Below, piece after piece: positions 18,174-46,662 of a stretch of DNA of 64,000 bases. The notes below the pieces were generated by a model that was not told the origin of the DNA, did no database searches, and saw only the letters and a list, made by a program, of their open reading frames with translations. Position 1 is the stretch's first letter; every line of letters starts with the position of its first letter. The translations under genes were made by a program, and so were the position numbers. The stretch is from Thermomicrobium sp. 4228-Ro. Its GTDB lineage: Bacteria > Chloroflexota > Chloroflexia > Thermomicrobiales > Thermomicrobiaceae. Location of the stretch: positions 620,001 through 684,000 of the forward strand of contig NZ_JAPFQM010000006.1 in the NCBI RefSeq assembly GCF_026241205.1. The letters are read 5' to 3'.

Positions 18174-18191
18174 CGGCTGAGGAGGGGACGG

Positions 18192-21130: not shown

Positions 21131-21142
21131 CGGAGGCTGCCG

Positions 21143-23842: not shown

Positions 23843-23844
23843 AG

Positions 23845-23868
23845 AGCGCGTCGAACAAGCGACGCGCT
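23845..23868 (+). terminator. Hairpin just after the defence operon
   Basis: AGCGCGTCG (23845-23853) and CGACGCGCT (23860-23868) form a perfect 9-bp stem with a 6-base loop, two bases after the helicase stop. There is no T tract, so it may terminate weakly or protect the transcript end. Confidence 0.45.
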
Positions 23869-24697: not shown

Positions 24698-24699
24698 CG

Positions 24700-26112: not shown

Positions 26113-26122
26113 GAGCACCCCC

Positions 26123-26179
26123 TCAGGGTAGGACGACGATCGTCGCGTAGCCGTTGCTCAGGTAGAAGTTGCGGTTACC
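26123..26179 (-). pseudogene. Possible gene remnant
   Basis: Nineteen codons reading GNRNFYLSNGYATIVVLP and stop, preceded in frame by TAA at 26182-26180 and by further coding-like residues (PLPVPYDLRL). It sits just upstream of the broken membrane gene. It may be the tail of a decayed gene in the same operon. Very short, so weak. Confidence 0.25.
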
Positions 26180-26214
26180 TTAAAGCCGAAGATCGTACGG
26201 TACGGGCAACGGCG

Positions 26215-26790: not shown

Positions 26791-26838
26791 CGCTCGTCCT
26801 AGCGAGTACGCCGTGCGGCGCGGTCGGAGATGCGTCGA

Positions 26839-27414: not shown

Positions 27415-27570
27415 GGTACCGCCCTCCCCGCTGGCGTCGTCTGGTCGTGGCAAGCGTAGCATGCCAGCGCGATCGTCGCTCGGCGGGACAGGTGGGCTCT
27501 CCTGCGGGGCGCACGCCGCTCGCCCCGAGATGCCCTGCACGGCTCCAGCCTACTCAGCGACTGGGGCGCA

Positions 27571-28392
27571 TCACCGTTCCGTCATGGTCGCGATGAGCGC
27601 TGCGCCGTAGAGCGTCAGTACGGCGGCGAGGTTCGCGGCGACGAGTATTCCGGTGACCGCGCCGAGTAGGCCGTACACCGCGCTCCCGTTGCCGAGCCAC
27701 TGGACTGCTGCGATGATCGCGAACTTCGTGGCTTCCCAAGCGAGTGCGGTGGCGAGAGCGCTGCTGCTGACGAGACGCCAAGAGGGTGACGGCGCAGGCA
27801 GGAGAAAACGGTAGAGGAGCGCGAACAGTACGAAGGAGGTGAGCAGACCGCTCCCGAAGCGGAGCGCAGCCGGTAAGGCCAGGACGAGGCCACTCACGAT
27901 GCCACCAGCCGTGAACCAGATGAGCGCCAGCCCGACCGCTCCGACAGTCGCACCGATGCCGTAGAGGCGCTCGCGGACGAACGAGGCTGGTCGTTCCGGC
28001 GCCGCTACGGCACGGAGCCCGCGTCGCAGCGCTGCACCGAGTGCACTCGCTGACCAAAGGCAGAGCAGTATGCTCACCAGTGCCAGCGGCCCGCTCGCGG
28101 TGTCTGCGTGTCTGGTGAGGATACCGCGGAGTTCCGGCTCCAGTGGTGCGGCTTGCGGCACCTCGGTCAGGAGGAACCGGAGAACGAGGTCGGGCGGGAT
28201 CGTCCTGCGCAAGAGCGTGCTCGTCACGGTGGCGAGGAGGAGCAGGAGCGGTCCGAGTGCGAGCATCGCGTTGTAGGCGATGGCTGCCGCGTGGAGAGCC
28301 CCGTCGTGCGAACGGAAACGCAGGAAGGCACGCCAGAAAACCGTCTGTCGGACAGATCGGTAGGCTGCACGCAGGAACCAGCGGCCTGACAT
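27571..28392 (-). CDS. YihY/BrkB-family membrane protein
   Basis: 273 residues, about six membrane helices. Begins with the family's SHDGALHAAAIAYNAMLALGPLLLLL segment (the 'ALHAAAIAYN' stretch is typical of YihY), then ALVSILLCLWSASALGAALRRGL and a C-terminal GAVTGILVAANLAAVLTLYGA. Family function is unclear; it is often misnamed ribonuclease BN. ATG 28392 was chosen over the upstream open frame because the conserved region begins about 25 residues later. The next gene upstream ends 98 bases away. Confidence 0.85.
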   Translation of the reverse strand: MSGRWFLRAAYRSVRQTVFWRAFLRFRSHDGALHAAAIAYNAMLALGPLLLLLATVTSTLLRRTIPPDLVLRFLLTEVPQAAPLEPELRGILTRHADTASGPLALVSILLCLWSASALGAALRRGLRAVAAPERPASFVRERLYGIGATVGAVGLALIWFTAGGIVSGLVLALPAALRFGSGLLTSFVLFALLYRFLLPAPSPSWRLVSSSALATALAWEATKFAIIAAVQWLGNGSAVYGLLGAVTGILVAANLAAVLTLYGAALIATMTER

Positions 28393-28490
28393 CGTCCCTC
28401 TCCGATCGGACGCCTGGCTCCGCCCCGCAGGTCGCAGGCGCGTTCGCGGTCGCCTGCCAGGTAGGCGTCGGCCCTGAGAAGGCGGGACGT

Positions 28491-30173
28491 TCAACCGGTT
28501 GCCTGCGCACCGGTCTCCCCGCTGGCCGGTACGATCTCGACCTCCACCTCGTCGAAGCGGATCGTCACGGGTGTCGTGTCGAGCCGGTGCGCCAGCAGCC
28601 CGACCCTTCCCTCGCCGATGAGCGGGTCTTCCAGGTCGGCAACCGTCTGCCCGGCAACGCGGAAGGTGAGATGCGTGTCCTGAACGGTCAGGTCGAGTTC
28701 GAGCGGATCGGAGGCCGAGACACCGGCCGAGAGCGGTGTTGCAGGCACGAGGTCGATGCCTTCGCCAGCCAGTGCGAGTGCGCAGCGCGCGAGCAGTTGC
28801 CCTCCGGTGCGGACGACCGAGCAGAGATAGAAGCTCGCCGTCCCGTCGTCCTCCTGGCTGAAGCGGACGACCAGTCCGGCTTCCGACTCCTCCGGCAGGC
28901 GCACCAGGGCGCGGATCCGCTGGTCCGTCCCAGGGGGAACGGAAGACGGCCAGACGATCTCCCAGCCCTGGGGTCGGTTCAACGTGTACTGGTAGGAGCC
29001 TTCGGAAATCGCCCGGCTGGCCCGTTCGTCAGCGCCGGTCGGCCAGTCGGCGCTCGCTGCGTCGTCGAATGTCCACCGCTCGTGCTGCGGTGTGGGGACG
29101 GGGCGGGCAGGACGCGGCTCGACGCGGAGAACCGTGGGCTGACTCTGACTCGGCTCGCCGACCCGCACCTGCGTGCGCAGGACGACGGTCCCCTCCGGCC
29201 GAGGATCGCGGAGTTCGGCCGTGAGATCGTCTCCTTGCCGGTGTTGCCGGAGAAGCGCACAGACTTGCGCGAAACGGGAGACCTCCTGCTCGTCCAGCCG
29301 GGTGAGCAGCATCCCTGGGCGAATCCCGGCGGTCGCTGCTGGCCCACTCGAGGTTGCTTCGATGACGACTAGGCCGGAGGGAGTGCCGAAGCGGGCGGGA
29401 TTCCGGTGCTCGCTCAATCCGAGGCCGAGCCAGAGGAGCCCACGTCCTTCAGCGAGCGACTGGGCGATCTCCAAAGCCGCCCCCGCTGGGAGAAAGCTGC
29501 CAGTGGGGAGCAAGATCCCGATGACCGCCCCGAAACGATCGGCCATGAGGGCACCCGGGGCGAGGTCGCCGACCGCGACGTTGACGCTCACGACGTCCCG
29601 CTCGCGGCTGCGGTCCGGTACGGCTCCGGTCGCAGCCGCCGGTAGGCTGACGGGTGGTTTCTCCGGTGCGGCTGCCGAAAAGCCATAGACGATGACATCC
29701 TCGCCGATATCGGGAACCTTGTCGACCGCCAGCGGGGCCAACGCGAGTCGCTCGGGGGGTGTGACGCGGACGACGGCGACACCGTCGCAGAGACTGGCAC
29801 CGAGGAGTTCCGCTGGTTGCGGATCGCTGCCCTCGGGCAGGCGAACCTGCACGCCGCTCGGGGGGCGCTCGTCGATCGGCGGGGCGCTGGTCAGGATGAG
29901 GCCCGGAGCGTAGGCGACGCCGGTCGTCGCGAACGGCTCGCCGTCCCCCATCAGGTACTGGACGAGGACGGTCGCTGGCCGCAAGCGCTCCTCCACCTCG
30001 GGCCAGGCGAGCGGCTGATCGCTCGCCTGCGGCACAGTCGGCGTCGGAGTCGGCTGGTTGCGGAAGGGCATGCCCCGGCATGCTGCAGACAGGAAGACGA
30101 GCGCGAGCACGAGCGTAGGGAGCGACGCCACCAACCACCGTCTGCGACTCGTCTGGTCTGGGGTTCGCACCAT
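28491..30173 (-). CDS. Lipoprotein with inactive trypsin-like, PDZ and LamG-like domains
   Basis: 560 residues. Signal RRRWLVASLPTLVLALVFL and lipobox SAAC (Cys about 32), then a Pro/Thr linker. Residues about 55-240 follow the HtrA fold order (TGVAYAPGLILTS, CDGVAVVRV, APGALMADRFGAVIGI) but the catalytic His after ILTS and the GNSGG serine are absent, so it should not cut peptides. A PDZ-like segment follows (GLVVIEATSSGPAATAGIRPGM), then a concanavalin/LamG-like beta domain (WTFDDAASADWPTG to VTIRFDEVEVEI). Likely a surface sensor or scaffold (inference). Divergent from the chemoreceptor pair. Confidence 0.75.
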   Translation of the reverse strand: MVRTPDQTSRRRWLVASLPTLVLALVFLSAACRGMPFRNQPTPTPTVPQASDQPLAWPEVEERLRPATVLVQYLMGDGEPFATTGVAYAPGLILTSAPPIDERPPSGVQVRLPEGSDPQPAELLGASLCDGVAVVRVTPPERLALAPLAVDKVPDIGEDVIVYGFSAAAPEKPPVSLPAAATGAVPDRSRERDVVSVNVAVGDLAPGALMADRFGAVIGILLPTGSFLPAGAALEIAQSLAEGRGLLWLGLGLSEHRNPARFGTPSGLVVIEATSSGPAATAGIRPGMLLTRLDEQEVSRFAQVCALLRQHRQGDDLTAELRDPRPEGTVVLRTQVRVGEPSQSQPTVLRVEPRPARPVPTPQHERWTFDDAASADWPTGADERASRAISEGSYQYTLNRPQGWEIVWPSSVPPGTDQRIRALVRLPEESEAGLVVRFSQEDDGTASFYLCSVVRTGGQLLARCALALAGEGIDLVPATPLSAGVSASDPLELDLTVQDTHLTFRVAGQTVADLEDPLIGEGRVGLLAHRLDTTPVTIRFDEVEVEIVPASGETGAQATG

Positions 30174-30275
30174 CGTCTCAGCCGGTTCCGTTTCGCAGCC
30201 CAGTGTAGTGCAGCCACAGAAAATGCGCAAGACGCGCACTCCGGGGGCTCTTTGGTCGGCTACCCGCACCGAGAT

Positions 30276-30290
30276 GGTCACAATGTGACC
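30276..30290. promoter_or_regulatory. Inverted repeat GGTCACAATGTGACC
   Basis: Six-base perfect arms around AAT, in the 207-base gap between the divergent lipoprotein and chemoreceptor genes. It resembles a CRP/FNR-class half-site arrangement turned inside out. It could serve both promoters; no regulator is assigned. Confidence 0.4.
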
Positions 30291-30380
30291 TCGTGCTCCT
30301 ATGGAGCAGCAGACACCTTGCCGATATCTCGGAGGAGGACTGAGTGAACGTGTTCCCAGCGACGAAGGCGAGGTGCTGTG

Positions 30381-32105
30381 ATGGTGCGCGAGGAAAGTGC
30401 CGGCCAGCGAATGACGGGGATCGATCTGCCGCCCGAGTCTCGGGGCCTGACCGCGCGCTCGCTTTGGGAGTTCTTGCGCGATGGATTCGGGCAGGGCGTG
30501 TCCTGGTTCAGCCGACCGATCAGGTTAGAGTGCGATGAGTCGGCGGCCCGAGCTCTGGCTCGCGCGCTCGAGCGCTTCCGAGATGACCTCTTGGCGACGA
30601 TGCGGGCGCTCGAGACAGCGGTGCGGCGCTCGGCAATCGGAGTCGCGCGGAGCGCGCTGCGCATCCAGGCGGTAACGACGGAGATCGATCGGACGCGCCA
30701 GCGGGCCGAGGCCGTGACGCGGGCCTTGCGCGAGGTGCAGGCCGGCGTGGAGGAAGTGGCCCAGGCGACAGCGAGTGCTGCAGCGGCGGCACGGGCAGTC
30801 GACGAGCACGCTGCTCGAGGCCGCGAGACGAGCGCGCGAGCCGCGAGCGAGGTCGCTGCCCTCCGGGCGCAGGTGCAGGAGGTCGCCGAGCGCCTGCACG
30901 CTTTGCTCGGCGATGTGGCGGCGATCACCCGGGTGAGCGAGCTCATCGCCGGGATCGCGAAACAGACCAATCTGCTGGCGCTGAACGCGGCGATCGAGGC
31001 AGCGCGAGCAGGTGAGCATGGCCGTGGCTTTGCCGTGGTCGCCGAGGAGGTGCGCAAGCTGGCCGAACACGCAGCGACCCAGACGCGGGAGATCCGCGCG
31101 CTGACCGATGCCGTTGCTGCCCAGCTAGCACCGGCCCGCGAGGCGTTGCTGGAGAGCGTCGCGTCCGCGGAAGCCGCGGCGACTGCCACAGCGGACCTCC
31201 AGCAGGTCTGGCAGGCGACCAGTCAGCTGGCCGCGACCGCTGCCGAGGCTGCTGAGGCGATCGCGACAGCGGTGCAGCAACAGACCGCGGCACTGGAACG
31301 AGCGACGAGTTCGCTCGGGGACATCGTCGCGAGTATCGGCGCGGTCGAACAGCAGGCCCAGAAGGTCGCGCAGGAGACGTTCGCACTCGCGCAGCTGGCC
31401 TCGGATGCCTATGGCCAGCTGGCCAAGGTCGATACCGGCACCACGTTCCACCGGGCACTCGTTGCCTGCCGCGAACTCGCCGAACGGTGTCAACGGGTCT
31501 TCGAGCGGGCGATCGACGAGCGGCGGGTCCGCCTCGAGGACGTGCTGGAACTCCGGTACAGCGAGATCAAGGGTCCAGCGATCCGTTCGCTGGCGCGCCT
31601 CTTCGACGTGAGTCGTGTCCCACCGGAGGGGTTCCAGCCACCGAAGTACAGCACGGCCTACGATGCTGTCGTCGACCTCGAGCTGTCCGAGGAGATGGAA
31701 GACATCATCCGCCGGGAACCGAAACTGGTCTTCGCGCTGCCGATCGATCTCAACACCTATGCGCCGATGCACAACCGGGCCTTCTGCAAGGACTGGACCG
31801 GGATTCCGGAACGAGACCTTGCGGGTAACCGGGTGAAGCGCTTCTTCTGGGATCAACGTGTGCTGGTGCGCGGTGCACGGGTCGGCCTGGGCGAGGCAGC
31901 GGAACGCTTGCCGAACATGGCGACACGCGCCGACTTCCTGCGCGCCGGGTGCGATCTGCGTGAATCGCCGCAGCAGCGGGAAGCGTTCCTCGTGCAGACC
32001 TATGCCCGCGATACTGGCGAGGTGATGACCGTGATCACGGTGCCGATTTTCGTCAAAGGGCAACGCTGGGGTGCCGCACTGGTCGGATGGAAGGAAGAGG
32101 ACTGA
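30381..32105 (+). CDS. Cytoplasmic methyl-accepting chemotaxis protein with C-terminal sensor
   Basis: 574 residues from ATG 30381 (a GTG precedes it in frame). No membrane segment. Long Ala/Arg/Glu coiled coil, then the MCP hairpin tip with [20 protein letters not shown] and [19 protein letters not shown] (about residues 190-240). The C-terminal 170 residues form a separate domain ([58 protein letters not shown]) that looks PAS/Cache-like and probably senses a cytoplasmic signal. Followed after 6 bases by a second receptor, so the two are co-expressed. No che genes lie nearby. Confidence 0.87.
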
Positions 32106-32111
32106 GATCCT

Positions 32112-33620
32112 GTGCTCAAGGACGCGCACTCTCTTGCCGAAGAAAGAGATCGAGTGCGCGCTGAGCGGTATCGATCGGTGGGAGCGTGGCCGATGAGTGC
32201 GGGATCGATCGGGAACGGGAATTTGGGAACCATGCACTCGATGCGTACGCGAGAGCGGGTGGGCATGCTCGACGGGAACGGAGTGGACGAGGCGAACTGG
32301 GTGGCGGCTCTCGATGAACTCGCGGTGGCGCTCGCCCGTGGCGACCTCCTTGCAGCGGAACAGGCGGTGATGCACCTGCCACCAGCGATGCAGACGCAGT
32401 GGAGCGGTGTGGTGGCGGCCTGGCGGGATCGGATCGCCGAACTCCTGGTCGCCGCGTCCGGCGCCGTGGCGGAAGGGCTGCGTCCAGTGCGGGCCGCCGA
32501 CGAGTTCTCGCGGGCGTTCCGCGAGCAGAAGGAGCAACTGAGCCAGGCTGCGAGCGTGGCGCGGGAACTCGCCCGGGCGGTCGAGCTCGTGTTCGGAAGC
32601 GTCGGTCAGGTCTCCGACGCGGCGCGTGGGGCGGCGGAGCGCGCCGAAGCAGGTATCGGGCGAGTGGACGAGGCGTTGCGCGCGCTCGCGGACGTCGCAC
32701 GCTCGGTCAGTGAATTGCAGAACCGGATCGAGGAACTCTCCAAGGCAGTTAACCCGATCACGCAGGTCCTGGGAACGATCGCGACCATCGCCAAGCAGAC
32801 GAACCTCCTGGCGTTGAACGCTGCGATCGAGGCGGCGCGAGCCGGTGAACACGGACGGGGTTTCGCCGTCGTTGCCGAGGAGGTGCGGCGGCTCGCGGTC
32901 TCGACGCAAGAGGCAGTGGCAGGTATCCGGGAACAAGTACAGGCCTTGTCCGAGGGGATGCAGCGTGTCGGCGAGGCGATGGGCGTCGTTGCCGAACAGG
33001 TCGAGAACGGCGCGCTCGTCGCAGCCGGCGGTCAGGAAGCGCTCGCGTCCATTCGGAAGAGTATCGATGCAATCGTTGCCCCGCTGCACGATATCGCCTC
33101 GGCGGCAGAAGAGCAGGCCCAGTCGGTCAGTCAGCTTGCCCGGAACGTCGAATCGGTGGCGGAACTCGCTGAGTCGGTCGGGAAGCGAGCGGACGAGCTG
33201 ACAGTCGGGGTCATCGAGCAGATGCAGCGGCTCCGTGCGATGCGCGAGCTGATCGCGCAGACAACGCTGACGCTTTCCGATGCGCAGCTGGTCCAGGTCG
33301 CCAAAGCGGACCATCTCCTCTGGGTACAGCGGTTGCTGGCGATGCTGCACGGCAAGGAACAGCTCCAGCCCGAGCAGGTGGCCGATTGGACGGCGTGCCG
33401 CTTGGGGCGCTGGTACTACGGACGCGGGCGCGAGCGCTACGGACACTCCAGCGTGTACCGGCAACTCGAGCAACCGCACCAGCGCTTGCACCAGACGGCT
33501 GCTGAAGCCGTGCGGGCCTGGAATCGCGGTGATCGGGAGCGGGCCCGCGAGTTGGTCGAAGAGGTCCGGCGCATCTCGAAGGACATAGTCTCGCTCCTGG
33601 AGGCGTTGCGCACGGCTTGA
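32112..33620 (+). CDS. Cytoplasmic chemoreceptor with CZB zinc-binding domain
   Basis: 502 residues from GTG 32112; ATG 32193 is a possible later start because the first 27 residues look unstructured. No membrane segment. MCP signalling tip [20 protein letters not shown] and [18 protein letters not shown]. The last 110 residues match the chemoreceptor zinc-binding (CZB) pattern: [16 protein letters not shown] and PHQRLHQ supply the 3 His and 1 Cys ligands. CZB receptors respond to zinc or, through the zinc-bound Cys, to oxidants such as hypochlorite. Operon partner of the preceding receptor. Confidence 0.88.
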
Positions 33621-33678
33621 GGGAGTGATCCGCGAGCGCATCGCTCGCTCGTACGGTGCCGAAGGACGAAATACCCGG

Positions 33679-34821
33679 TCAGGTTGGCTGTGCCGCGAGT
33701 TCGGTCGCTGCTGCCATGAGCTTCGGCGACTCGATCGGGGCTCGTGGGTCGTGCGTCCGCTCGAGCAGGCAGAGTTCGAGCGAGTATTCCCACATTCGCC
33801 GTACCCGATCGAAACGGCGCTCGACGTAGGCCGTGAGAGCCGCCTCCAGGTCGCTGTGGCGGTCGAGTTCCTCAGCCAGTACGACAGCATCCTCGATCGC
33901 CATGGCACCGCCCTGTGCGGTGTGTGCGGTGAGTGTATGCGCTGCATCGCCGACGAGGACGATCTGGCCACGGTGCCACGGCTTGGGAACGAGGATCGTC
34001 TCGAAGGGTCGCAAGACCACTCTGGCTGGATCCGTCATCGCTTCAGCGAGCGCGGCCAGTGCTGGGACATGGCGATACCCGTCGAGACGCTTCCGCATCT
34101 CCTCGGCCAGCTGCTCCTCCGGATAGCGGAGTGGTTTGCCGGGCGCCCCTTCGGTGATGAATATGTACATGGCGTCCTGCGCCATCGGTGCGACACCGAC
34201 CTTCGGGTCGCCCAAGTAGATCCAGCTCGCATCGAGTCCCTCGGCTCGGAAGGGAAACGCGTACCGCCAGACCATCTGGTCTTCGTAGCGCGGTGGTGGT
34301 ACTTCGGGGAAAGCGAGGTGTCTCACCCGCGAGCGGAGACCGTCGGCCCCGACGACGAGATCGTACGTCGCCTGGCGGCCGTCGCTGAACTGCACGACGA
34401 CGTGGTCACCCGCCTGCTCGATCCTATCGACCGTGATACCGAGGGTGACGCTGACAGCAGCTTCGCGGATCGCGGCTTGCAAGATCCGGTGGAGGACTGG
34501 GCGCGCGATACCGAGGATCGAGGGATAAGAGGTTCCGGCGATCGGCGGGGTAACGAGTTCACCGATCCGTGCACCGTTGGGGGCGAAGAGAATCGTGGAC
34601 GGTGATGGGTACCCTCCCGCAATCACCCGGTCGGCGAGTCCGATAGTGTCCAGGGCGCGGAGCGCGTTGGCAGCGAGGAGGATGCCAGCCCCATAGACAT
34701 CCCACTTCGGATTGATCTCGGCGATGTCGATTTCCATCGCGATGCCGCGCTCGCGGAGCGCCAGTGCCGTACACATACCAGCGATACCACCACCGACGAT
34801 CAACACGCGCCCGAGTCGCAT
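33679..34821 (-). CDS. FAD-dependent aromatic-ring monooxygenase
   Basis: 380 residues, salicylate/hydroxybenzoate hydroxylase family. N-terminal Rossmann motif VLIVGGGIAGMCTALALRERG (GxGxxG, residues about 5-25), mid DLVVGADGLRSRVR and C-terminal VLVGDAAHTLTAHTAQGGAMAIEDA, the three FAD-binding fingerprints in order. Introduces a hydroxyl into an aromatic ring with NAD(P)H and O2; substrate not readable. ATG 34821 chosen because the Rossmann motif begins at residue 5. Last gene of the minus-strand catabolic cluster, 4 bases after the FAH-family gene. Confidence 0.88.
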   Translation of the reverse strand: MRLGRVLIVGGGIAGMCTALALRERGIAMEIDIAEINPKWDVYGAGILLAANALRALDTIGLADRVIAGGYPSPSTILFAPNGARIGELVTPPIAGTSYPSILGIARPVLHRILQAAIREAAVSVTLGITVDRIEQAGDHVVVQFSDGRQATYDLVVGADGLRSRVRHLAFPEVPPPRYEDQMVWRYAFPFRAEGLDASWIYLGDPKVGVAPMAQDAMYIFITEGAPGKPLRYPEEQLAEEMRKRLDGYRHVPALAALAEAMTDPARVVLRPFETILVPKPWHRGQIVLVGDAAHTLTAHTAQGGAMAIEDAVVLAEELDRHSDLEAALTAYVERRFDRVRRMWEYSLELCLLERTHDPRAPIESPKLMAAATELAAQPT

Positions 34822-34825
34822 GACT

Positions 34826-35902
34826 TCACTCCTTTCCGCGTTGCACGGCTGGACGGTTGGCCGAGCGATCGAGATCGACCGGATCGAGGTCTCGTTCGGC
34901 AGCGCACGTGATCCGCTGCGTGCCGAGCCCGGTGACCGTCCCTTCGAGGACGTCGCCCGGACGGAGGTACCGGTTGTAGTGCGCACCATTGCCAGCTGGT
35001 GAGCCGGTGCAGATCAGGTCGCCCGGGAGGAGCTGGACATGACGCGAGATGTATTCGATGAGGCGTGCGACGTCGAAGATCATGTCGCTGGTCGATTCGT
35101 GTTGCATGACCTCACCGTTGAGGGTGAGGGTGAGCGTGAGCTTCTGGGGGTCAGGGACGAACGGTGCTGGCGTCAGGTAAGGGCCCATCGGGAGGAAACC
35201 AGGTGCGCACTTGGCAGCGAGCCAGTCCATACCCATTTCCGGGATATCTGGACGGTACACGAGATCGCGTGCCGTGATGTCGTTCACGATGACGTATCCC
35301 GCAACGTACTCGAGGGCACGTTCGCGCGGGACACGCCGGGCCGGTCGGCCGATGATCACACCCAGTTCGAGTTCCCAGTCCACTTGCGTCGATTCGGGCG
35401 GCAGGAACAGCGTTTCGTAGGGGCCGATGACGGTGGAGGGTGCTTTCAGGAAGACGAACGGCTTTCCATGCTCTGCACGCTCGTCCATCATCCGCCAGGC
35501 CCATTCGTACCGCTCTTCCGGTTTCAGGTGCGCGACGTGTGGTCCGGACTGCGCGACGACCAGCTCGACGACGTGTCGCTTGTAGTTCGCACCGGAGCAG
35601 AAGATCTGACGTGGAAGATACACGGGCGGTAAGACCTGGAGCGCTGAGACCGGTAAGAACGGAAGGTCAGCGTCTTTCCCCGCTCGGATGACCTCGACGG
35701 CTGCGAGGAGCGCTTCCAGATTTTGCGGCCAGTGATCGAGCAGCCCCAGTACACTGTGCGGTTCCCGCAGGGGCTGACCGAGCGACGCACACAATGGCTC
35801 GAGTGCAGTGACCGCGATCACCTTGTCGTCCAGAACCAGCCCAGCGAACGGCGGGCTACCAGCGGCCCGAAAGGTTCCGAGTCGAAAAGACGGTTCCGTC
35901 AT
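34826..35902 (-). CDS. Fumarylacetoacetate-hydrolase-family enzyme, copy 1
   Basis: 358 residues. FAH fold signatures: IFCSGANYKRHVVE, FLKAPSTVIGPYE, DWELELGVIIGRPARRV with the metal-binding acidic residues, VNDITARDL and LLPGDLICTGSPAGNG. Such enzymes cleave or decarboxylate the diketo acids formed after ring opening. Longer at the N-terminus (about 100 residues) than minimal family members. ATG 35902 follows GAGAGGT. Lies 22 bases after a distinct FAH paralogue and 4 bases before the monooxygenase. Confidence 0.86.
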   Translation of the reverse strand: MTEPSFRLGTFRAAGSPPFAGLVLDDKVIAVTALEPLCASLGQPLREPHSVLGLLDHWPQNLEALLAAVEVIRAGKDADLPFLPVSALQVLPPVYLPRQIFCSGANYKRHVVELVVAQSGPHVAHLKPEERYEWAWRMMDERAEHGKPFVFLKAPSTVIGPYETLFLPPESTQVDWELELGVIIGRPARRVPRERALEYVAGYVIVNDITARDLVYRPDIPEMGMDWLAAKCAPGFLPMGPYLTPAPFVPDPQKLTLTLTLNGEVMQHESTSDMIFDVARLIEYISRHVQLLPGDLICTGSPAGNGAHYNRYLRPGDVLEGTVTGLGTQRITCAAERDLDPVDLDRSANRPAVQRGKE

Positions 35903-35924
35903 ACCTCTCAACTCCCTCGATCGG

Positions 35925-36935
35925 TCATTCCATGTCGTGGTCGCGACGCTTCTTGGGCGTAGGAAGCCATCCTGCACGGGTTGGGTGACCGATCCGGTTG
36001 CGCAGAGTGCCGATACCCTCGACCTCCAACTCGACCGTATCGCCCGGCTGGAGTTCACGCCCGAGTTCGGCACCACTGCCGAAGCCGACGGTTCCCGACC
36101 CGAGCAAGGCACCGGCAGGGAGGAGTTCGCCCGTCGAGGCCCAGGCAACGAGTTCGGCGATGCTCCACAGCATGGTGCCGCTCTGTCCTTCCGACCAGAC
36201 CACGCCGTTGACGCGCGCGATCATCCGGAGGTCGAGCGAGGGTAACTCGTCGAGGGTGACGATGACTGGCCCGATGGCCGTACAGAAACTCTTCGCCTTC
36301 GGTGGGCCGAGCCGGGATTCCATCTCGCGTGCCTGGATGTCGCGGGCAGTGAAGTCGTTGAGAATCGTGAGGCCGAACACGAGGTCGAGTGCATGCTCTG
36401 GATCGACATCACGCCCGGTCTTCCCGATGACCAGGCCGAGCTCGAGTTCGTAATCCATCCCGGAGTGCGCATACGGTGGCCAGGGGACTTCCGCGTCAGG
36501 TCCCACGACGGTATGGTGGTTACCGATGTAGTGCACGGGGAGCTCGTAGAGCACTGGTGCGACCGGCTTGCCGGTCACCCGTGCCATATTCACGAAGTGC
36601 CGCTCGAAGGAGACGAAGTCCCGGTACATTGTCGGATCGAGTGGCGCCACCAGCTGTCCTCCCGGTGGAAGCAGCGCGTCGCCGCTCGTGTCCCGGCTGG
36701 CTTCGCGCAAGATGTCGAGGAACGCCTCGCCGTACTCGAATGCCTGGCTGAGGCTCTCCGGGACGAGGAGCCTGGCGAGACGCTGGGCGGCGTCCCGGGT
36801 GGCACCGCGCCGCTCGGCCTGCAGGCGCGCGAACCGGCGCACGTCGATCCAGCGTTCGGGTACGAGCGTCGAGGCCACGGCGATGCGGACTTCTGGGCCA
36901 TCGGGGGTCTCGTAGCGGAAGCGAGCGACCTTCAT
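35925..36935 (-). CDS. Fumarylacetoacetate-hydrolase-family enzyme, copy 2
   Basis: 336 residues, closer to true FAH/fumarylpyruvate hydrolases: MYRDFVSFERHFVN, YELPVHYIGNHHTVVGPD, DYELELGLVIGKTGRDV (metal site), LNDFTARDIQARE, KAKSFCTAIGP and GTVGFGSGAELGR in family order. Likely hydrolyses the ring-fission diketo acid while copy 1 performs a further step, but the division of labour is guesswork. Start overlaps the upstream amidohydrolase stop (ATGA). Confidence 0.87.
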   Translation of the reverse strand: MKVARFRYETPDGPEVRIAVASTLVPERWIDVRRFARLQAERRGATRDAAQRLARLLVPESLSQAFEYGEAFLDILREASRDTSGDALLPPGGQLVAPLDPTMYRDFVSFERHFVNMARVTGKPVAPVLYELPVHYIGNHHTVVGPDAEVPWPPYAHSGMDYELELGLVIGKTGRDVDPEHALDLVFGLTILNDFTARDIQAREMESRLGPPKAKSFCTAIGPVIVTLDELPSLDLRMIARVNGVVWSEGQSGTMLWSIAELVAWASTGELLPAGALLGSGTVGFGSGAELGRELQPGDTVELEVEGIGTLRNRIGHPTRAGWLPTPKKRRDHDME

Positions 36936-37864
36936 CGTCCCAACCTCTCGAACAACCGCGGTACGAGGACGCGCGCGTTTTCTCCCTCGATCGCGGGGCG
37001 TGCATGTGGCCAGCGATCGAGTTCCGGTGCAGGATCCGGGCCATCGGGAAGGGCCGCGTAAGGCCAATCGGTGCCGAAGACAATGCGTTCCGCGGGTAAA
37101 AGCCGGAACGTGGCTTCGAGCACGGCCGTGTAGTTGGACAGTGCTGTGTCGTAGAAGAGCGACCGCAACGTTTCGACAGGATCGCGTCGAAGGTGCCCGG
37201 CCAGGGACGGTTCGCGCTGCCGCACCGAAGCGATGCGATAGGCGAGGAAGGGTACCGTTCCGCCGAGGTGGGCGAACTGCCAGCGGATCGCGCCATAGCG
37301 CTCGAAGATACCGGAGAAGAGCAGCGAAACGATGGCACGGGTCGTCTCGAAGGGAAACTCGAGCACCCAGGGTGGGACGCCTGGTAGGGGGCCAGGATAG
37401 ACCGGCATCGTCGGGTGCACGAAGACGTAGCAGCCCCGGGAGTCGAGGACAGCGAAGAGCGGTTCGAGTCGGGGATCACCGAGGTACATGGTGCCGGTGT
37501 TGGTCAGGAGTGTGACGCCATCGAGCTGCAAGTGGTCGAGCGCGTAGTCCAGCTCGACGAGCGCAGCCTCGATATCGGGAAGGGGCAGCGTCGCGAGTGC
37601 GGCGAAGCGTGCCGGGTAGCGCTGCACGAGTTCAGCCGCGAACTCGTTCACTACCCGTGCGAGTGCGCGCGCTTGCGCTCCGTCGCCGAAAAACACCCCG
37701 GGTGGCGGAAGAGAGACGACTGTGGCCGTGATACCGTACTGGTCCATGACAGCGAGCAGTTGCTCGACCGACCATGGTGGTACCGGCGTCGGCATACCGG
37801 CACGCTCGAGTGCTGCCCAGTAGGGCGGCGGTGCGATGTGCCCGTGAAGATCGATACGCACCAT
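36932..37864 (-). CDS. Amidohydrolase-2 family enzyme, ACMSD-like
   Basis: 310 residues. Metal-dependent TIM barrel: RIDLHGHIAPPPYW (HxH metal site, residues 5-8), VFVHPTMPVYPG (His), WQFAHLGGTVPF (His) and FGTDWPYAAL with the catalytic Asp. Members include aminocarboxymuconate-semialdehyde decarboxylase and gamma-resorcylate decarboxylase, so a non-oxidative decarboxylation or hydrolysis in ring catabolism is likely. Cytoplasmic. 3 bases after the cyclase gene, ATGA overlap with the FAH-family gene. Confidence 0.85.
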   Translation of the reverse strand: MVRIDLHGHIAPPPYWAALERAGMPTPVPPWSVEQLLAVMDQYGITATVVSLPPPGVFFGDGAQARALARVVNEFAAELVQRYPARFAALATLPLPDIEAALVELDYALDHLQLDGVTLLTNTGTMYLGDPRLEPLFAVLDSRGCYVFVHPTMPVYPGPLPGVPPWVLEFPFETTRAIVSLLFSGIFERYGAIRWQFAHLGGTVPFLAYRIASVRQREPSLAGHLRRDPVETLRSLFYDTALSNYTAVLEATFRLLPAERIVFGTDWPYAALPDGPDPAPELDRWPHARPAIEGENARVLVPRLFERLGR

Positions 37865-37867
37865 ACC

Positions 37868-38629
37868 CTACTCCAGGATCGCGACGACACGGGCTGGTGC
37901 GGCGCTGCCGCCCACGATGCGCAGCGGGAAGCAGGCAACCGTGAAGCCGCGCGACGGCAGTGCCGCGAGGTTGCACAGTCGCTCGATCTGGGCATACGGG
38001 AGATCGACCTGGTGCGCTGCCCAGAGGATGCCAGGCTGTCGCTTCTCGAGCGCCTCGCGTGCCTGGAGATGGAGGGGGCGATCCCAGCCCCACGCGTCGA
38101 TTCCCATGACGCGGATACCGCGCTCGTAGAGCCAGCGTGTCGCCTCGGGCGTCACTCCGGGGCCGCGGAGCCAGTAGTCGGGTTGACCGTAGAAAGCATC
38201 CCGACCTGTCTCGACCAGGACGATCTCCCCAGGGGCGAGCGTGTGGCCGATGCGGGAGAGTTCGGCCGCGATGTCCTCGACAGTGATGGCATCCCCGTCT
38301 GCCTTGCGGTGGAAGTCGAGCTTGACTCCAGGAGCGAAGAACCACTCGAGCGGCAGCTGGTCGATCGTCGGTGCCGGCTCGCCAGCGATGACCGAGTTGT
38401 AGTGCCATGGCGCGTCCACGTGCGTCGTACTGTGGGTGCCCATGAAGGTGATCGTCTCCCCAGCCGGCCCCTCGCCGTTGCGGAGTAGATTGCGATCGAT
38501 GCCGAAAAGCTGCTCGAATTCGCGTGCACCGGCCTCGTGACCCGAGAACGTGATCGTCACCCGTTGGAAGGGTGGCACGTCCGGCGGTGTGTTCACGATC
38601 GGTGCCGATAGATCGACGAAGCGGGGCAT
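37868..38629 (-). CDS. Cyclase-family (kynurenine formamidase-like) metal hydrolase
   Basis: 253 residues. Family motif HxGTHxDxPxH appears as MGTHSTTHVDAPWH (about residues 63-76), with the later PGEIVLVETGRDAF and MGIDAWGWDRP. Members hydrolyse N-formyl amides or enol lactones using a binuclear metal centre. In this operon a role on a formamide or lactone intermediate is plausible. ATG 38629 follows AGGAGGAGG. Confidence 0.85.
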   Translation of the reverse strand: MPRFVDLSAPIVNTPPDVPPFQRVTITFSGHEAGAREFEQLFGIDRNLLRNGEGPAGETITFMGTHSTTHVDAPWHYNSVIAGEPAPTIDQLPLEWFFAPGVKLDFHRKADGDAITVEDIAAELSRIGHTLAPGEIVLVETGRDAFYGQPDYWLRGPGVTPEATRWLYERGIRVMGIDAWGWDRPLHLQAREALEKRQPGILWAAHQVDLPYAQIERLCNLAALPSRGFTVACFPLRIVGGSAAPARVVAILE

Positions 38630-38656
38630 CGCCTCCTCCTCTCGGCTGAGCCGGGG

Positions 38657-39664
38657 TTAGCGATACGGGTTCGGTTGCTGCGTATCGGCGACGAGGCCGA
38701 GGTCGGCTGCGAAGGCGGGATGCGTGGCGGGTGGGAAACACTCGAGCATCGAGTCGGGCATCGGCGTGTTCCGGAAGAAGATGTTGGAACCTTGCGATGG
38801 GCGCCAGCGAACAGGCTCCCAGTCGGGAACGTAATTCCGGGTCCCACCACTGTTGAGCTCTAACCGGAGCCCGCTCGGCTCGCGGAAGTAGAGGTAACTC
38901 TGCTCGCCCATCCCGTGGACACCGGGACCGAACTCGATGGCGTAGCCTGCCTCCAGGAGAAGGTCCGCGGCGCGAAAGAGTGCCTCGCGGGTGTCGACGT
39001 AGAACGACACATGGTTGAGCCGGCCGGGGATGGGTGACGTGTCCTTGACGAAGGCCAGGTCATGGTCCTTCTCGTTGGTGGTGACCATGGCGAAGACGAT
39101 GAAGTCGGGGTCTTCCTCCAGACCGTTGTAGCACATGAACCGGAAACCGAGAGTATCGCGGAACCAGTGGGCATCACGCAGGACGTCGCTCGTGGCGACC
39201 GTGACATGGTCGAGATGACGCGGCTCGAGTCCTCCACCGCGGAATTTTTGGGGTCGCTCTGGGAAGGTCGAGGCCAGCTCGGGGGGAGCAGTATAGCGCT
39301 CGATCTCCCAGAGGATCTCGATCGTATGGCCACCGGGAGCGCGAAACCGGTAGGCGCGGCCATGGCCGAAATCTCCGTCGATCCATGCGCCCTGAATCCC
39401 GCTGGCCTCGATATTCCGGACGGCCTGCTCGAGGTCCTCTGGACTCCAGGCTCGCCAGGCAGCGTGCCCGAGGCCGGGGTAGTCGGCGGCAGTGAGAACG
39501 ATGCTGTAGGTGTAGTGATCACCCCAGCAGCGCAGGTAGGCTCGGCCGTTCGTCTCGTGGACGACCGACAACCCGACGATCTCGGTGAAGAAGCGCCGCG
39601 AGGCGTGGTAATCGGGCGTCAGGAGTTCGACGTGGACCAGTTGTGCGAGCAGCGGGCGCGGCAT
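38657..39664 (-). CDS. Extradiol (VOC-family) ring-cleavage dioxygenase
   Basis: 335 residues, two vicinal-oxygen-chelate modules as in type I catechol 2,3-dioxygenases. Expected Fe(II) ligands are present in the second module: LDHVTVAT (His), RLNHVSFYVD (His) and GLRLELNSG (Glu). The final YFREPSGLRLE is the family signature. Opens a catecholic ring next to a hydroxyl. First enzyme gene of the cluster; RBS GAAAGGAG. 235 bases separate it from the binding-protein gene, enough for an internal promoter. Confidence 0.88.
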   Translation of the reverse strand: MPRPLLAQLVHVELLTPDYHASRRFFTEIVGLSVVHETNGRAYLRCWGDHYTYSIVLTAADYPGLGHAAWRAWSPEDLEQAVRNIEASGIQGAWIDGDFGHGRAYRFRAPGGHTIEILWEIERYTAPPELASTFPERPQKFRGGGLEPRHLDHVTVATSDVLRDAHWFRDTLGFRFMCYNGLEEDPDFIVFAMVTTNEKDHDLAFVKDTSPIPGRLNHVSFYVDTREALFRAADLLLEAGYAIEFGPGVHGMGEQSYLYFREPSGLRLELNSGGTRNYVPDWEPVRWRPSQGSNIFFRNTPMPDSMLECFPPATHPAFAADLGLVADTQQPNPYR

Positions 39665-39899
39665 GTTCGGCTCCTTTCGATCGAAAATAGCGCTCTGTTG
39701 CGAACCCTTCCGTCGGTCGAACCGATCGGCCCTCGCACCGGCGGAGCACGGTCGACTGATCGGGGTGACTGGCTGGCGCCTACCGTACCGACCTCATCGC
39801 GCATCATTCCGAGCCAGCGCACTATGCGTTCCTGGGCTGGTCGGCCGTTCATCGCTCCTCTCGCTCGCATCGAGGGCCAGCCACGGTCATGTGACATCA

Positions 39900-41228
39900 T
39901 CACCGGCTCCAGTGCGGCTTGGGCACGAGGGGTGAGGCGGCAGCGACCTCGGGTGGCCAGACGACGAGGAATTCGAACGCATCGCGGTACCGCTGCCATT
40001 GGCCGACTTGCCAGCGGTGGAAGAAGATGTTCTCCTGGAACCGGACCGTGCCGATGATCGTATCGAACGATCCGGAAGCGATCTCGCGGATCAGGGCTTG
40101 TCGGTCGATCCGGCCGACCCGTTGCAGGGCTTGCTGGAGGACCTGCAGGGAGGCGTAGCAGATCGGACTGGCTGATCGATCCGGCTCCCGCCCGGTCTGT
40201 TCCTGATGGCGGCGGTAGTAGTCCACCAGGCCAGGTTGACGCGGGTCGACACCGCCGATTCCGATGATTCCTTCGATGTTGGTAGCGAACTGATCGCGGA
40301 AGACAGGAAGCGCGGGGCCGAGTGCGCTGATGTAGACGGGAGGATTGAAATCGAGCAGGATTGCGACCTGGGCCAAGGCGAAGGCATCGTTCGGGTAGCT
40401 GCAGGCGAGGAAGATAGCGGGCTGTCGCTGCTGGATCGTCGTGATGATCGGCTGAAAGTCGGTCGTGCCGGCGGGATAGCTCTCGTCGTAAACGAGCTCG
40501 AAGTTGCTTTTGGCCAGAGTGCGGCGTAAGGCAGCCGACAGCTCCAGACCGAAGGCGTCGTCGACCGCGATCAGGGCGACACGGCGGTCGATCGATCCTT
40601 GGCTCGCGAGGCCATCCAAGAGGCTGGTGAGGTTCTCGGCGGCCCAGCTGGATGTACCGAACGTAAAATAGCCGGGCCACTGCTTGGCCAGGTCGGGTGA
40701 CTTGTCGCTCACGTCGGTCACCGCCAGCTGGGGGAAACCGAACTGGTGGAACAACGGCGCAGTCGCGAGGTTGATCGCAGTGCCGTACGGAGCGAGGAGG
40801 AGGTCGACCTTGTCCTCGTTGACGAGACGCTGGATGGCCTTGATCGCCTCTTCCGGGTTGCTCTGGTCGTCGTATTCGACGAACTCGATCGTATAGATCC
40901 CGTCGATGAGTTCCAACCCACCGGCGTCGTTCACGTCCTTGGCCCACAGCAGGTAGTTAGGGTAGACGATGATCGATGCGGCCGCGGCATAGGGGCCGGT
41001 CTTCGAGATCGCGAAGCCGACGCGCAGCGTCTTGTGGGGTTTCGTCACGACAGTAGCCGGCGTTCCCGTTTCCCGCATACCGGTCGGGGTCGCTGCTTGC
41101 CCCGCGGTCGTGGGTGTCGGGCGCACGGTCGGTGTCGGTTGGTTGGTACTGCAGGCAGCGAGGAGGCTGGAAACGAAGCCCGTTCCCGTTAACGCGAGAA
41201 AACGGCGCCGGCTGAACCGGAGAGCCAT
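39900..41228 (-). CDS. LivK-type substrate-binding lipoprotein
   Basis: 442 residues. Twin-arginine FSRRRFLALTG, hydrophobic core and lipobox LLAAC, then a Thr/Pro linker, so an exported lipoprotein. The mature part is a type I periplasmic binding protein of the branched-chain amino acid family (LRVGFAISKTGPYAAA, LLLAPYGTAINLATAPLF). No permease or ATPase genes accompany it. It heads the catabolic cluster and is divergent from a GntR regulator, so it probably captures the aromatic substrate or acts as a sensor. ATG 41228 preferred over the in-frame GTG. Confidence 0.85.
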   Translation of the reverse strand: MALRFSRRRFLALTGTGFVSSLLAACSTNQPTPTVRPTPTTAGQAATPTGMRETGTPATVVTKPHKTLRVGFAISKTGPYAAAASIIVYPNYLLWAKDVNDAGGLELIDGIYTIEFVEYDDQSNPEEAIKAIQRLVNEDKVDLLLAPYGTAINLATAPLFHQFGFPQLAVTDVSDKSPDLAKQWPGYFTFGTSSWAAENLTSLLDGLASQGSIDRRVALIAVDDAFGLELSAALRRTLAKSNFELVYDESYPAGTTDFQPIITTIQQRQPAIFLACSYPNDAFALAQVAILLDFNPPVYISALGPALPVFRDQFATNIEGIIGIGGVDPRQPGLVDYYRRHQEQTGREPDRSASPICYASLQVLQQALQRVGRIDRQALIREIASGSFDTIIGTVRFQENIFFHRWQVGQWQRYRDAFEFLVVWPPEVAAASPLVPKPHWSR

Positions 41229-41375
41229 CACTCGACCCCTTTCGTCTCGTCGCCGAGCGACAGTGCGCTATCCTGCCGAGTCCCGATCGCCTGTCGCGCA
41301 CTCAGACCGCGTCTCTGGCGCTGCTACGACACGTTTTTGTGTGCGATAGCGACGTCCGTCGACTGATGGTCATAT

Positions 41376-41383
41376 TGTATACA
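41376..41383. promoter_or_regulatory. TGTATACA palindrome, candidate GntR/FCD operator
   Basis: Perfect 8-bp palindrome in an AT-richer patch (CATATTGTATACACTTG) in the 202-base gap between the binding-protein gene and gntR. FCD-type GntR regulators commonly bind short TnGTnnACnA-like palindromes of this kind. Position suits control of both divergent promoters. Confidence 0.5.
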
Positions 41384-41430
41384 CTTGCTGTGTCTGCGTC
41401 AAGCAGTTAGGATTGGGTGCGGGGTGGACG

Positions 41431-42147
41431 ATGGAGACGAACGATCACGGGACGAGCGTTCTCAGCGTACACGACGCGATCCGGTCAGCGATCCTGCGCG
41501 GTGCGCTGGAACCGGGTCGGGTCGTGAGCCAGCTGCAGCTGGCCCGCGAGCTCGGTGTCGGTCGCACACCGCTCCGCGAGGCGCTCCGGTTGCTGCAGCG
41601 CGAGGGACTGGTGACGCTCGAGCCCAACCGGAGAGTGCGGATCGCCCAACTGTCCGTTGCTGATGCCGAGGAAATCTACACGATGCGGATCACGCTCGAG
41701 GCGGTCGCGATCCGACTCACGATCCCCAACCTAACCGCGGAAGACTTCGCTGAGCTGGAGGGGCTGTATGCGCAAATGGACTATTTTACCCGGCTCAACG
41801 ACGTCGAGCGGCTGAACGCCCCGCACCGAGCTTTCCACCTCGGTTTCGTTCGTGGCGCTGGACAGCGTTGGGTGGACTTGATCGGTCAGCTGTTCGATCA
41901 CGCAGAGCGCTATCGCCTCCGTTTCGTGCGGATCTCTCCAGATGGCGGTGCGCCGCGTCAGGCCGAGCACCGCGCCATGCTCGATGCAGCGCTGGCTGGC
42001 GACGTCGAGCGCACGGTCACCTGTATGGCTCGGCACTATGCGCACACGGCGACCGTCGTGCTGTCCTCACTGCAGCCAGGGTATCGTTCGGCGCGTCTGG
42101 CGGCTGTCCTCGACATGGTGGCTCCCCAGGCGCGGATCGCCCAGTGA
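41431..42147 (+). CDS. GntR-family regulator, FCD type
   Basis: 238 residues from ATG 41431 (RBS GGGGTGG). N-terminal winged helix with VHDAIRSAILRGALEPGRVV and LARELGVGRTPLREALRLLQREGLV; C-terminal all-helical FCD domain with the metal-binding His pattern (HRAFHLGFVRG, AEHRAMLDAAL, MARHYAHT). FCD regulators bind small carboxylic acids. Divergent from the catabolic cluster and therefore its probable local repressor. Confidence 0.88.
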   Translation: METNDHGTSVLSVHDAIRSAILRGALEPGRVVSQLQLARELGVGRTPLREALRLLQREGLVTLEPNRRVRIAQLSVADAEEIYTMRITLEAVAIRLTIPNLTAEDFAELEGLYAQMDYFTRLNDVERLNAPHRAFHLGFVRGAGQRWVDLIGQLFDHAERYRLRFVRISPDGGAPRQAEHRAMLDAALAGDVERTVTCMARHYAHTATVVLSSLQPGYRSARLAAVLDMVAPQARIAQ

Positions 42148-42370
42148 AGGGCTCGTGGGCGTGCTGGTTCTCACCGGCTACCCTGGCATCGGGGCGCGTG
42201 GAGGGTCGGGCGAGTGAGGTGTGTGGCCAGAGCTGCGAGGCCATCGACTCCTGGCACTCGACGCGCTGTACTCCCCGCATTTGCCAACCATCCGGAGCGT
42301 GCTTGCGCGGATTTCGGTCTCTCGGTACAGTTCGCCGCGTACGGCTCGGAAAAGGGGAAGGAGGTTGGGC

Positions 42371-43822
42371 GTGAGCGAGCGGGCGGTCGGCGCGGGGACA
42401 CAGGTCGGTGAGAGCTGGCTCGAGCGGTTCTTCCACCTGCGCGAACTGGGTACCAATGTGCGTACGGAGGTGCTCGCCGGTTTCACGACCTTCATCGTGA
42501 TGGCGTACATCATCTTCGTCAACCCGCAGATTCTCAGCACCCCCGATGTCCCGGACAAGCTCCCGATCTCGGCTGTCACGACGGCGACCGCACTCGTCGC
42601 TGGAGTGATGACCATCGCGATGGGCCTGGCCACCAACCGGGCCTACGCGATGGCGCCTGGAATGGGGCTCAACGCGGTGGTCGCCTTTCAGCTCATGGGC
42701 GCACTGGGCCTGACGGCCGCCGAAGCGATGGGGGTGATCGTCGCCGAGGGGATCGTGATCACGGTCCTCGTGCTGCTCGGCATCCGTCGCTACGTGATGG
42801 AGGCGATCCCGCTCGAGCTCAAGCAGGCGATTTCGGTCGGTATCGGTCTCTTCATTCTCTTCATCGGGTTGGTCAACGGCGGGATCGTGGTAGCCGATCC
42901 GGCGACGCTCGTCCGGCTCGGTGACTTGCGCGGCGTCCCCGTCTTCGTGACCGGGGTGGGGCTCCTGATCACCCTCTTTCTCCTGGCACGCGGTGTGCGC
43001 GGCGCGTTGCTTTTGGGCATCTTGCTGACGACGGTCGTGGCCATCATCGCACGTGCGGTCACCGGGACGGAGGCGTTCCCACCGGGTGTGGCGCAGCTCC
43101 CGACCCAGTGGATCGCAGTACCCGACTTCAGCCGGATCGGCGACTTCAGTTTCGGCTTCATCACCAAGCTCGGTGTGTTGACCGCTCTTCTGGTCGTCTT
43201 CTCGATCATGCTCGCCGACTTTTTCGACACGATGGGGACGTTGATCGGAGTCGGTCGCCAGGCCGGCTACCTCAACGAGCGCGGTGAGTTCCCCCAGGCC
43301 CAGCGTGCGCTCCTCGTCGATTCGCTCGGTGCCGTGATGGGTGGCGTCTGCAGCGCCTCGTCGGCGACGACCTACATCGAGTCGGCGGCTGGAATCAGCG
43401 TGGGGGGCCGGAGCGGGCTGGTCTCCGTCGTGACCGGTATCCTGTTCCTCCTGTCGATGCCCTTCTGGCCGGTCGTCGGGATCGTTCCCGCGCAGGCGAC
43501 AGCGCCAGCACTCATCATCGTCGGGTGGATGATGATGGGCGTGCTCAGTGAGGCGGAGGCGGAAGCGGAGGCCAGGCCGTCACGGATCCGCGTCGGGGGA
43601 ATCGACTTCGCCAATATCGAGGTCGGCCTTCCGGTGACGATGACGATGCTGATGATGCCGTTCACCTACAGCATCACCGACGGGATCGGTGCGGGGTTCA
43701 TCACCTACACGCTGATCAAGGTCTTCCGCGGGAAGTTCCGCGAGGTGCACCCGGTACTCTACGTGGTCAGCGCGGCGTTCATCGTGTACTTCCTGCGGCA
43801 TGCGCTCGGCCTGGTCGTCTAG
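42371..43822 (+). CDS. AzgA-type purine (NCS2) permease
   Basis: 483 residues from GTG 42371, preceded by GGAAGGAGG. About twelve membrane segments. Family motifs: GFTTFIVMAYIIFVNPQIL, AYAMAPGMGLNAVVAF, SIMLADFFDTMGTLIGVGRQAG and SSATTYIESAAGI, the arrangement of AzgA/PurP-like hypoxanthine-guanine-adenine proton symporters. An internal acidic repeat (SEAEAEAEA) lies in a loop near residue 395. No purine genes accompany it. Confidence 0.87.
   Translation: MSERAVGAGTQVGESWLERFFHLRELGTNVRTEVLAGFTTFIVMAYIIFVNPQILSTPDVPDKLPISAVTTATALVAGVMTIAMGLATNRAYAMAPGMGLNAVVAFQLMGALGLTAAEAMGVIVAEGIVITVLVLLGIRRYVMEAIPLELKQAISVGIGLFILFIGLVNGGIVVADPATLVRLGDLRGVPVFVTGVGLLITLFLLARGVRGALLLGILLTTVVAIIARAVTGTEAFPPGVAQLPTQWIAVPDFSRIGDFSFGFITKLGVLTALLVVFSIMLADFFDTMGTLIGVGRQAGYLNERGEFPQAQRALLVDSLGAVMGGVCSASSATTYIESAAGISVGGRSGLVSVVTGILFLLSMPFWPVVGIVPAQATAPALIIVGWMMMGVLSEAEAEAEARPSRIRVGGIDFANIEVGLPVTMTMLMMPFTYSITDGIGAGFITYTLIKVFRGKFREVHPVLYVVSAAFIVYFLRHALGLVV

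Positions 43823-45834: not shown

Positions 45835-46662
<828 letters not shown>

Follow-up and report, generated by a model that had tools for sequence, protein, structure and literature searches.

In the fde operon of Herbaspirillum seropedicae, as set out in passages of two papers, FdeE begins naringenin degradation via 8-hydroxylation (PMC11303751, PMC11069340), and in the ifc pathway of isoflavones a hydroxypyranone (m/z 203.035) was identified after A-ring cleavage (PMC11069340). Degradation of C-glycosides in soil has been characterised as far as the step that frees the aglycone, whose later fate is not addressed in the relevant passages of the C-glycoside papers cited below. Here we describe a 64,000-nucleotide stretch of Thermomicrobium sp. 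4228-Ro (contig NZ_JAPFQM010000006.1, positions 620,001 to 684,000; "the window"), in which an open reading frame (ORF) list and Pfam confirmed a cluster of eight genes at 33679-42147, with ORFs, order and strands matching an earlier sequence-only reading. The block is best read as a real island that encodes a variant of flavonoid-type A-ring degradation; each of the six enzymes can be given a role in a coherent scheme, and the substrate is one that we infer. On balance we consider it probable, if by a modest measure, that the island serves to break down the A ring of a flavone-like polyphenol aglycone of the 5,7-dihydroxy-chromone type, working by a variant of the fde and ifc pathways. The six enzymes are encoded as follows.

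33679..34821, minus strand: FMO, group A FAD monooxygenase (Pfam FAD_binding_3; PRK06847 subfamily above cut-off; GGGIAG, GADG and GDAAH motifs)
34826..35902, minus strand: FAH1, FAH-superfamily protein (FAA_hydrolase; NYxxHxxE and FxKxP motifs, as in other acylpyruvase/HpaG-type members)
35925..36935, minus strand: FAH2, FAH-superfamily protein (FAA_hydrolase; fumarylacetoacetase-like DFxxFxxH segment)
36932..37864, minus strand: AMH, ACMSD-like amidohydrolase (Amidohydro_2; HxH, H150, H199 and D266 present)
37868..38629, minus strand: CYC, cyclase family (Cyclase, PF04199; STTHVDAPWH motif; best solved relatives are isatin hydrolases)
38657..39664, minus strand: VOC, type I extradiol dioxygenase (Glyoxalase/Diox-like_N; 2-His-1-Glu triad His153/His218/Glu269)

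The six enzymes and a proposed route

Counted from the divergent regulator, the minus-strand genes run in the order SBP (a binding protein), VOC, CYC, AMH, FAH2, FAH1 and FMO, with tight packing from VOC onward, a 4 bp overlap of AMH and FAH2, and purine-rich stretches upstream of most start codons. The earlier enzyme calls (FAD monooxygenase, extradiol VOC dioxygenase, two FAH proteins, ACMSD-like amidohydrolase, cyclase-family hydrolase and GntR/FCD regulator) all hold by Pfam and motifs, as does the view that this ring-catabolism cluster fits no single textbook pathway. The roles of the known catalytic residues within the motifs are those that we presume for these families.

The DFxxFxxH segment of FAH2 aligns with that of fumarylacetoacetase 5ti1, and the fumarylacetoacetase model gave FAH2 scores of 69, 74 and 80 bits (window, Meiothermus and Arthrobacter, respectively), against 21 bits or no match for FAH1; HpaG-C or other models equal or exceed it for FAH2 of the window and of Meiothermus. 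The predicted structure of AMH (pLDDT 88.7) has the uncharacterised amidohydrolase 2f6k as its top fold match (Z 34.4), followed at Z 31-33 by 5-carboxyvanillate decarboxylase, ACMSD, isoorotate decarboxylase and 2,6-dihydroxybenzoate decarboxylase, with LigY and LigJ at 27-28. As the nearest named structures after 2f6k are decarboxylases (Z 30-33), AMH is taken to be a decarboxylase.

With apigenin as the example, FMO would hydroxylate the A ring at C8, next to a phenol hydroxyl, and VOC would then cut C8-C8a to give a 3-acylpyruvoyl-4-hydroxy-6-aryl-2-pyrone. FAH1, acting as an acylpyruvate hydrolase, may remove pyruvate and leave the pyrone 3-carboxylate, from which AMH would take CO2 to form 4-hydroxy-6-aryl-2-pyrone. 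The lactone of this pyrone would be opened by CYC to 5-aryl-3,5-dioxopentanoate, an aroyl-acetoacetate analogous to fumarylacetoacetate, which FAH2 is predicted to split into an aryl carboxylate and acetoacetate. By computed atom balance all of the proposed steps balance, with one step per enzyme, and the formula of the predicted 4-hydroxy-6-aryl-2-pyrone equals that of the ifc hydroxypyranone.

The module in other bacteria and its two variants

We defined VOC, CYC, AMH, FAH2, FAH1 and FMO as a six-gene module. In many Actinomycetota, VOC, FAH1, CYCb (PF04199, from another branch), FMO, AMH and FAH2 are adjacent, often together with an MFS transporter and a GMC oxidase. In other loci the place of FAH1 and AMH is taken by POP, an alpha/beta hydrolase related to 2,6-dihydroxypseudooxynicotine hydrolase (DHPONH), which is also its best solved relative. 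In the window block all six families lie together, FAH1 and AMH both included, and no POP match was found in window positions 28001-50000. Loci came from plasmids and from one scan of genome contigs (the best 80 of 258 relatives), giving 84 loci (L036-L119), of which 83 were mapped after removal of L039.

Sixty-three loci carried FMO, VOC and either FAH2 or CYC, with no identity threshold applied. FAH1 and AMH occurred together in 48 of these, POP only in 14 and neither arrangement in one; none was discordant. FAH1 and AMH were thus never single and never beside POP (Fisher p = 4e-13 for AMH against POP, uncorrected for relatedness). Three of the 63 (L038, L042 and L052) enter both the count and the tree described below through weak FAH2 (28-30%) or, in L052, weak POP (28%) matches. 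With identity thresholds, which were chosen after the map had been seen, 61 loci qualified (48 FAH1 with AMH, 11 POP, 2 neither), and CYC and FAH2 were common to both variants (58/61 loci each). Four further loci from genomes drawn by phylum were all concordant and all of the FAH1 and AMH type; of the six later loci, L153, which nearly duplicates L041, and L146, which shares a contig with L040, were left uncounted, and two more matches proved to be L051 and L052. Such exclusivity would be expected if the two sets were alternative ways of reaching a single hydroxypyrone.

In a quick VOC tree of 68 rows, which includes the window and the four later loci, well-supported branches force at least six changes of variant, and AMH and POP go opposite ways in 6/6 independent pairs (sign test p = 0.031). 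Support was by SH-aLRT only, and the placement of L038, L042, L045 and L052, which sit on long branches, is unsure. Both variants occur within Deinococcota, within Actinomycetota and within the genus Leifsonia.

The 20 non-qualifying loci were without FMO, without both FAH2 and CYC, or incomplete. Among them, L050 has POP and a weak (34%) FAH1 match; L086, whose sequence ends 409 bases before VOC, has FAH1 and FAH2 without AMH; the short L097 and L040 have FAH1 alone or AMH alone; and L047, L049, L062 and L066-L068 have VOC with no other module gene. When CYC was used as bait in the phylum of the window, 14/301 genomes matched at E 1e-40 or better (its own included), and the 14 other places, all fetched, held no FMO or VOC. 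A VOC search around the genome of L044 returned the seed genome only, of 398, at E 1e-80.

We assume that the bond cut by 2,6-dihydroxypseudooxynicotine hydrolase is the ring-carbonyl bond. That this enzyme cleaves a C-C bond (PMC11069340) is as required for POP to replace FAH1 and AMH. A single POP enzyme would then cut the ring-carbonyl bond and release oxaloacetate.

A. globiformis NBRC 12137, P. siccitolerans 4J27 and M. trichothecenolyticum each carry the six-gene module in the same region as two GMC genes and homologues of CarB/CarC. C-glycoside enzymes from these species (from the same strains for the first two) act on homoorientin, orientin or mangiferin, according to passages of PMC8563793 and PMC10646112; the characterised CGD and G3Ox proteins are linked to the genes beside the module by species or strain, not by sequence. 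In Deinococcus aetherius the POP variant follows sugar-transport genes, CarB, CarC (Pfam CGDB) and GMC. In 12/30 genomes there is a GMC oxidase with no less than 74% identity to the one in the Arthrobacter cluster, each time on the contig of VOC at a distance of 7.9-32.5 kb; these were 30 of the 80 genome loci, picked non-randomly, and eight were already known to show GMC nearby. GMC copies of 35-46% identity also occur, some on other contigs. Term searches of main texts on C-glycoside degradation did not find the module genes, and "dioxygenase" is absent from PMC8563793; a paper on Deinococcus aerius may discuss neighboring genes.

A genomic island with a likely local regulator and an orphan binding protein

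The extent of the island and the remaining features of the block are given below.

33621..42318: the block as delimited by flank alignment to genome G001, which lacks it (G003: nearly the same limits)
41431..42147, plus strand: GntR/FCD regulator, divergent from the other genes (GntR and FCD; the ORF starts with TTG at 41413 and has its first ATG at 41431)
41376..41383: palindrome TGTATACA, candidate operator between SBP and GntR, the sole copy in the window
39900..41228, minus strand: SBP, LivK-type binding protein without a local permease (Peripla_BP_6)

The island measures about 8.7 kb and is carried by 2/7 genomes of the genus. Two others have an empty site: in G001 the flanks (window 33455-33620 and 42319 onward) are separated by 209 bp, and in G003 the corresponding flanks are separated by 697 bp. 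The right flank alone aligned in G006, G002 and G004. A VOC of this kind (>43% identity) is present in the window genome and G005 only, of the seven, with G003 and G005 incomplete; G005 carries the regulator side of the block. These empty sites mean that the block is a discrete gain or loss within the genus. HRbin27 keeps the block genes at 82-98% identity, spread over two contigs with FMO cut by a contig end; since the genes are kept there and the order of the six enzymes is the same in Meiothermus, the cluster is not a chance grouping. Meiothermus is also the nearest relative found outside the genus (VOC 74% identity), which suggests horizontal transfer of the block.

At the left boundary, two chemoreceptor genes (30378-33620, plus strand) end right at the island; they encode an MCP signalling domain, and the second encodes a zinc-binding CZB domain as well. 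To the right, an NCS2-type permease (42221-43822) was rejected as the transporter of the cluster, being found in 7/7 genomes of the genus, including those that lack the block. A MenB-like 1,4-dihydroxy-2-naphthoyl-CoA synthase, above its curated cut-off, lies outside the island at 45835-46662 (plus strand).

The GntR/FCD protein is likely the local regulator of the block. The palindrome is kept in HRbin27 as AGTGTATACACT, and a check of three Meiothermus-type loci did not find TGTATACA.

The binding protein had been described as lacking transporter partners, and locally this is true: the window contains no LivH relative (a genome search gave five matches, all elsewhere), so SBP is locally an orphan. 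A paralogue with 64% identity at C1:769406 adjoins LivH-, LivMG- and LivF-type genes, an HpaB-type hydroxylase and another VOC. Most likely, SBP would deliver its substrate to the distant LivHMGF permease at the paralogue locus. The window genome has six VOC homologues in all, further ones of which adjoin LivKHMGF-type transporters (C1:757-776 kb, L138 and L139; C11, L142), one with a Pfam-checked HpaB-type hydroxylase; these six homologues suggest a broad use of phenolics.

Competing readings and comparison with described systems

A nitrogen-containing aromatic of the hydroxynicotinate, anthranilate or kynurenine type, such as the sequence-only reading raised as one possibility, would account for the isatin hydrolases as relatives of CYC and its weak arylformamidase score, for the likeness of AMH to ACMSD, and for the resemblance of FMO to 6-hydroxynicotinate 3-monooxygenase, among others. 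The trp_arylform score, however, is 28.3 bits against a cut-off of 223.05 (for FMO, the best 25 of 73 models were considered), and the module families overlap with those of fde-like operons. Relatives of the module also sit with deglycosylation genes for C-glycosides (flavonoid, xanthone, anthraquinone), in three soil bacteria beside the oxidase and deglycosidase genes themselves, which makes such a substrate very unlikely; nitrogen-heteroaromatic and kynurenine-type readings are thus disfavored on model scores and genomic context. A simple meta-cleavage pathway for catechol or homoprotocatechuate with recruited extra hydrolases would suit the 253.6 bits of VOC against catechol 2,3-dioxygenase (catechol_2_3, TIGR03211) and 161.1 against HpaD, and an HpaB, VOC and Liv cluster does exist elsewhere in the genome. 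Both scores fall below their curated cut-offs (320.2 and 321.4), however, and 0/8 block proteins match an aldehyde dehydrogenase or aldolase family in Pfam, so that a simple catechol/HPA meta pathway is disfavored on scores and missing genes and appears improbable.

The same enzyme logic, with other intermediates, could serve another fused or acylated polyphenol aglycone, such as a xanthone (norathyriol), an anthraquinone (kermesic acid) or an acylphloroglucinol. C-glycoside enzymes of linked or related strains also take mangiferin or carminic acid besides flavonoids, according to passages of PMC8563793 and PMC10646112, and AMH could directly decarboxylate an aromatic acid; the presence of CYC and FAH2 in both variants, however, would best fit a pyrone of the sort that a flavone-type C ring yields, one that becomes a 3,5-diketo acid on opening, and we regard this alternative as rather unlikely.

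Several observations also weigh against the flavone-like A-ring reading. The best model for FAH2 of the window is HpaG-C, not fumarylacetoacetase, and YisK ranks first in its fold comparison, although this ranking is indecisive (predicted model pLDDT 77, residues 108-140 poor). VOC shares only 27% identity over 127 aa with that of the fde-like operon L173. Since AMH is just 27-30% identical to actinobacterial AMH, and CYC and actinobacterial CYCb have only the Pfam family in common, equal roles are assumed. The window genome gave 0 matches to CarB of D. aetherius and one weak 63-residue GMC match (an empty answer alone shows nothing, and no search with the CGD beta subunit was made); the C-glycoside link is therefore drawn from the relatives only. 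On Paraburkholderia hospita plasmid L175, FAH1, FAH2, FMO and VOC occur without AMH, with a separate POP cluster about 7 kb away (both in 17992-36978). Disruption of a DHPONH-like gene in Variovorax left daidzein degradation unaffected (PMC11069340), a result tempered by the fact that daidzein is without the 5-OH that makes an acylpyruvate. The activities of the module members, and their regioselectivity, are predictions from sequence. As a separate observation, L175, with clusters of FAH1 type and POP type together on one plasmid, is a natural setting for comparing both routes.

Beyond the A-ring reading of the block itself, we tentatively propose, with somewhat less than even confidence, that the module represents a widespread and unrecognised polyphenol-aglycone pathway. 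In this pathway FAH1 and AMH-type and DHPONH-like routes would be interchangeable and meet at one hydroxypyrone, a PF04199 lactonase and a fumarylacetoacetase-like enzyme would finish the degradation, flavonoid A-ring cleavage would reach beyond Proteobacteria to Meiothermus and the lineage of the window, and the aglycone half of the soil C-glycoside pathway would be supplied. The module is a complete, testable enzyme list for aglycone breakdown. It offers candidate hydroxypyrone decarboxylases and lactonases, and points to kinds of enzyme that may carry out the X2 to X3 step in isoflavone breakdown.

Three plasmid operons (L173 of Burkholderia anthina, L176 of Diaphorobacter and L172 of Azospirillum), which we take from their gene order to be fde operons and through which, rather than through H. 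seropedicae sequences, the window was compared, share with it FMO (42.5% identity over 355 aa to that of L173), a VOC dioxygenase, a PF04199 cyclase (43% to that of L173) and FAH. They differ in having POP, a Rieske protein, a LysR regulator, a cupin (2/3) and another VOC branch (27%), where the window has FAH1 with AMH and GntR. Two other plasmid regions show only part of the fde-like set: L174 gave no match for FMO or the Rieske protein, and in L177 neither a cyclase nor FAH was found within 10 kb. The FAH1 and amidohydrolase pair was not seen in the fde-like operons, so that, although FMO, VOC, cyclase and FAH families recur there, not all of the enzymes have clear orthologs in a described cluster, in keeping with the sequence-only reading.

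The ifc cluster of Variovorax sp. V35, compared by description only, likewise proceeds by 8-hydroxylation and dioxygenation of the A ring and by way of a hydroxypyranone; it differs in that the cupins IfcD1/D2 act on the pyranone, and its gene for the X2 to X3 step was not identified (PMC11069340). C-glycoside deglycosylation clusters of soil actinobacteria and Deinococcus (a GMC C-glycoside oxidase with CarB/CarC) are physically linked to the six-family module or to the POP variant, whereas the window block is without GMC, CarB and CarC. The cluster of Meiothermus sp. KatS3mg071 (L041) has the same six genes in the order of the window (VOC, cyclase, amidohydrolase, FAH2, FAH1, monooxygenase) at about 59-74% identity, with a GntR at 70%. 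Unlike the window block, it contains its own SBP and permease genes (SBP-LivH-LivMG-LivF), and oxidase, dehydrogenase, SMP-30 and epimerase genes. These latter genes (L041:5382-9238 and 15936-18660) encode an FAD-linked oxidase, a histidinol-dehydrogenase-like enzyme, SDRs, an SMP-30 lactonase-like protein and an epimerase, several of which recur in Deinococcus, Rhizobium K84 and Anaerolineae loci.

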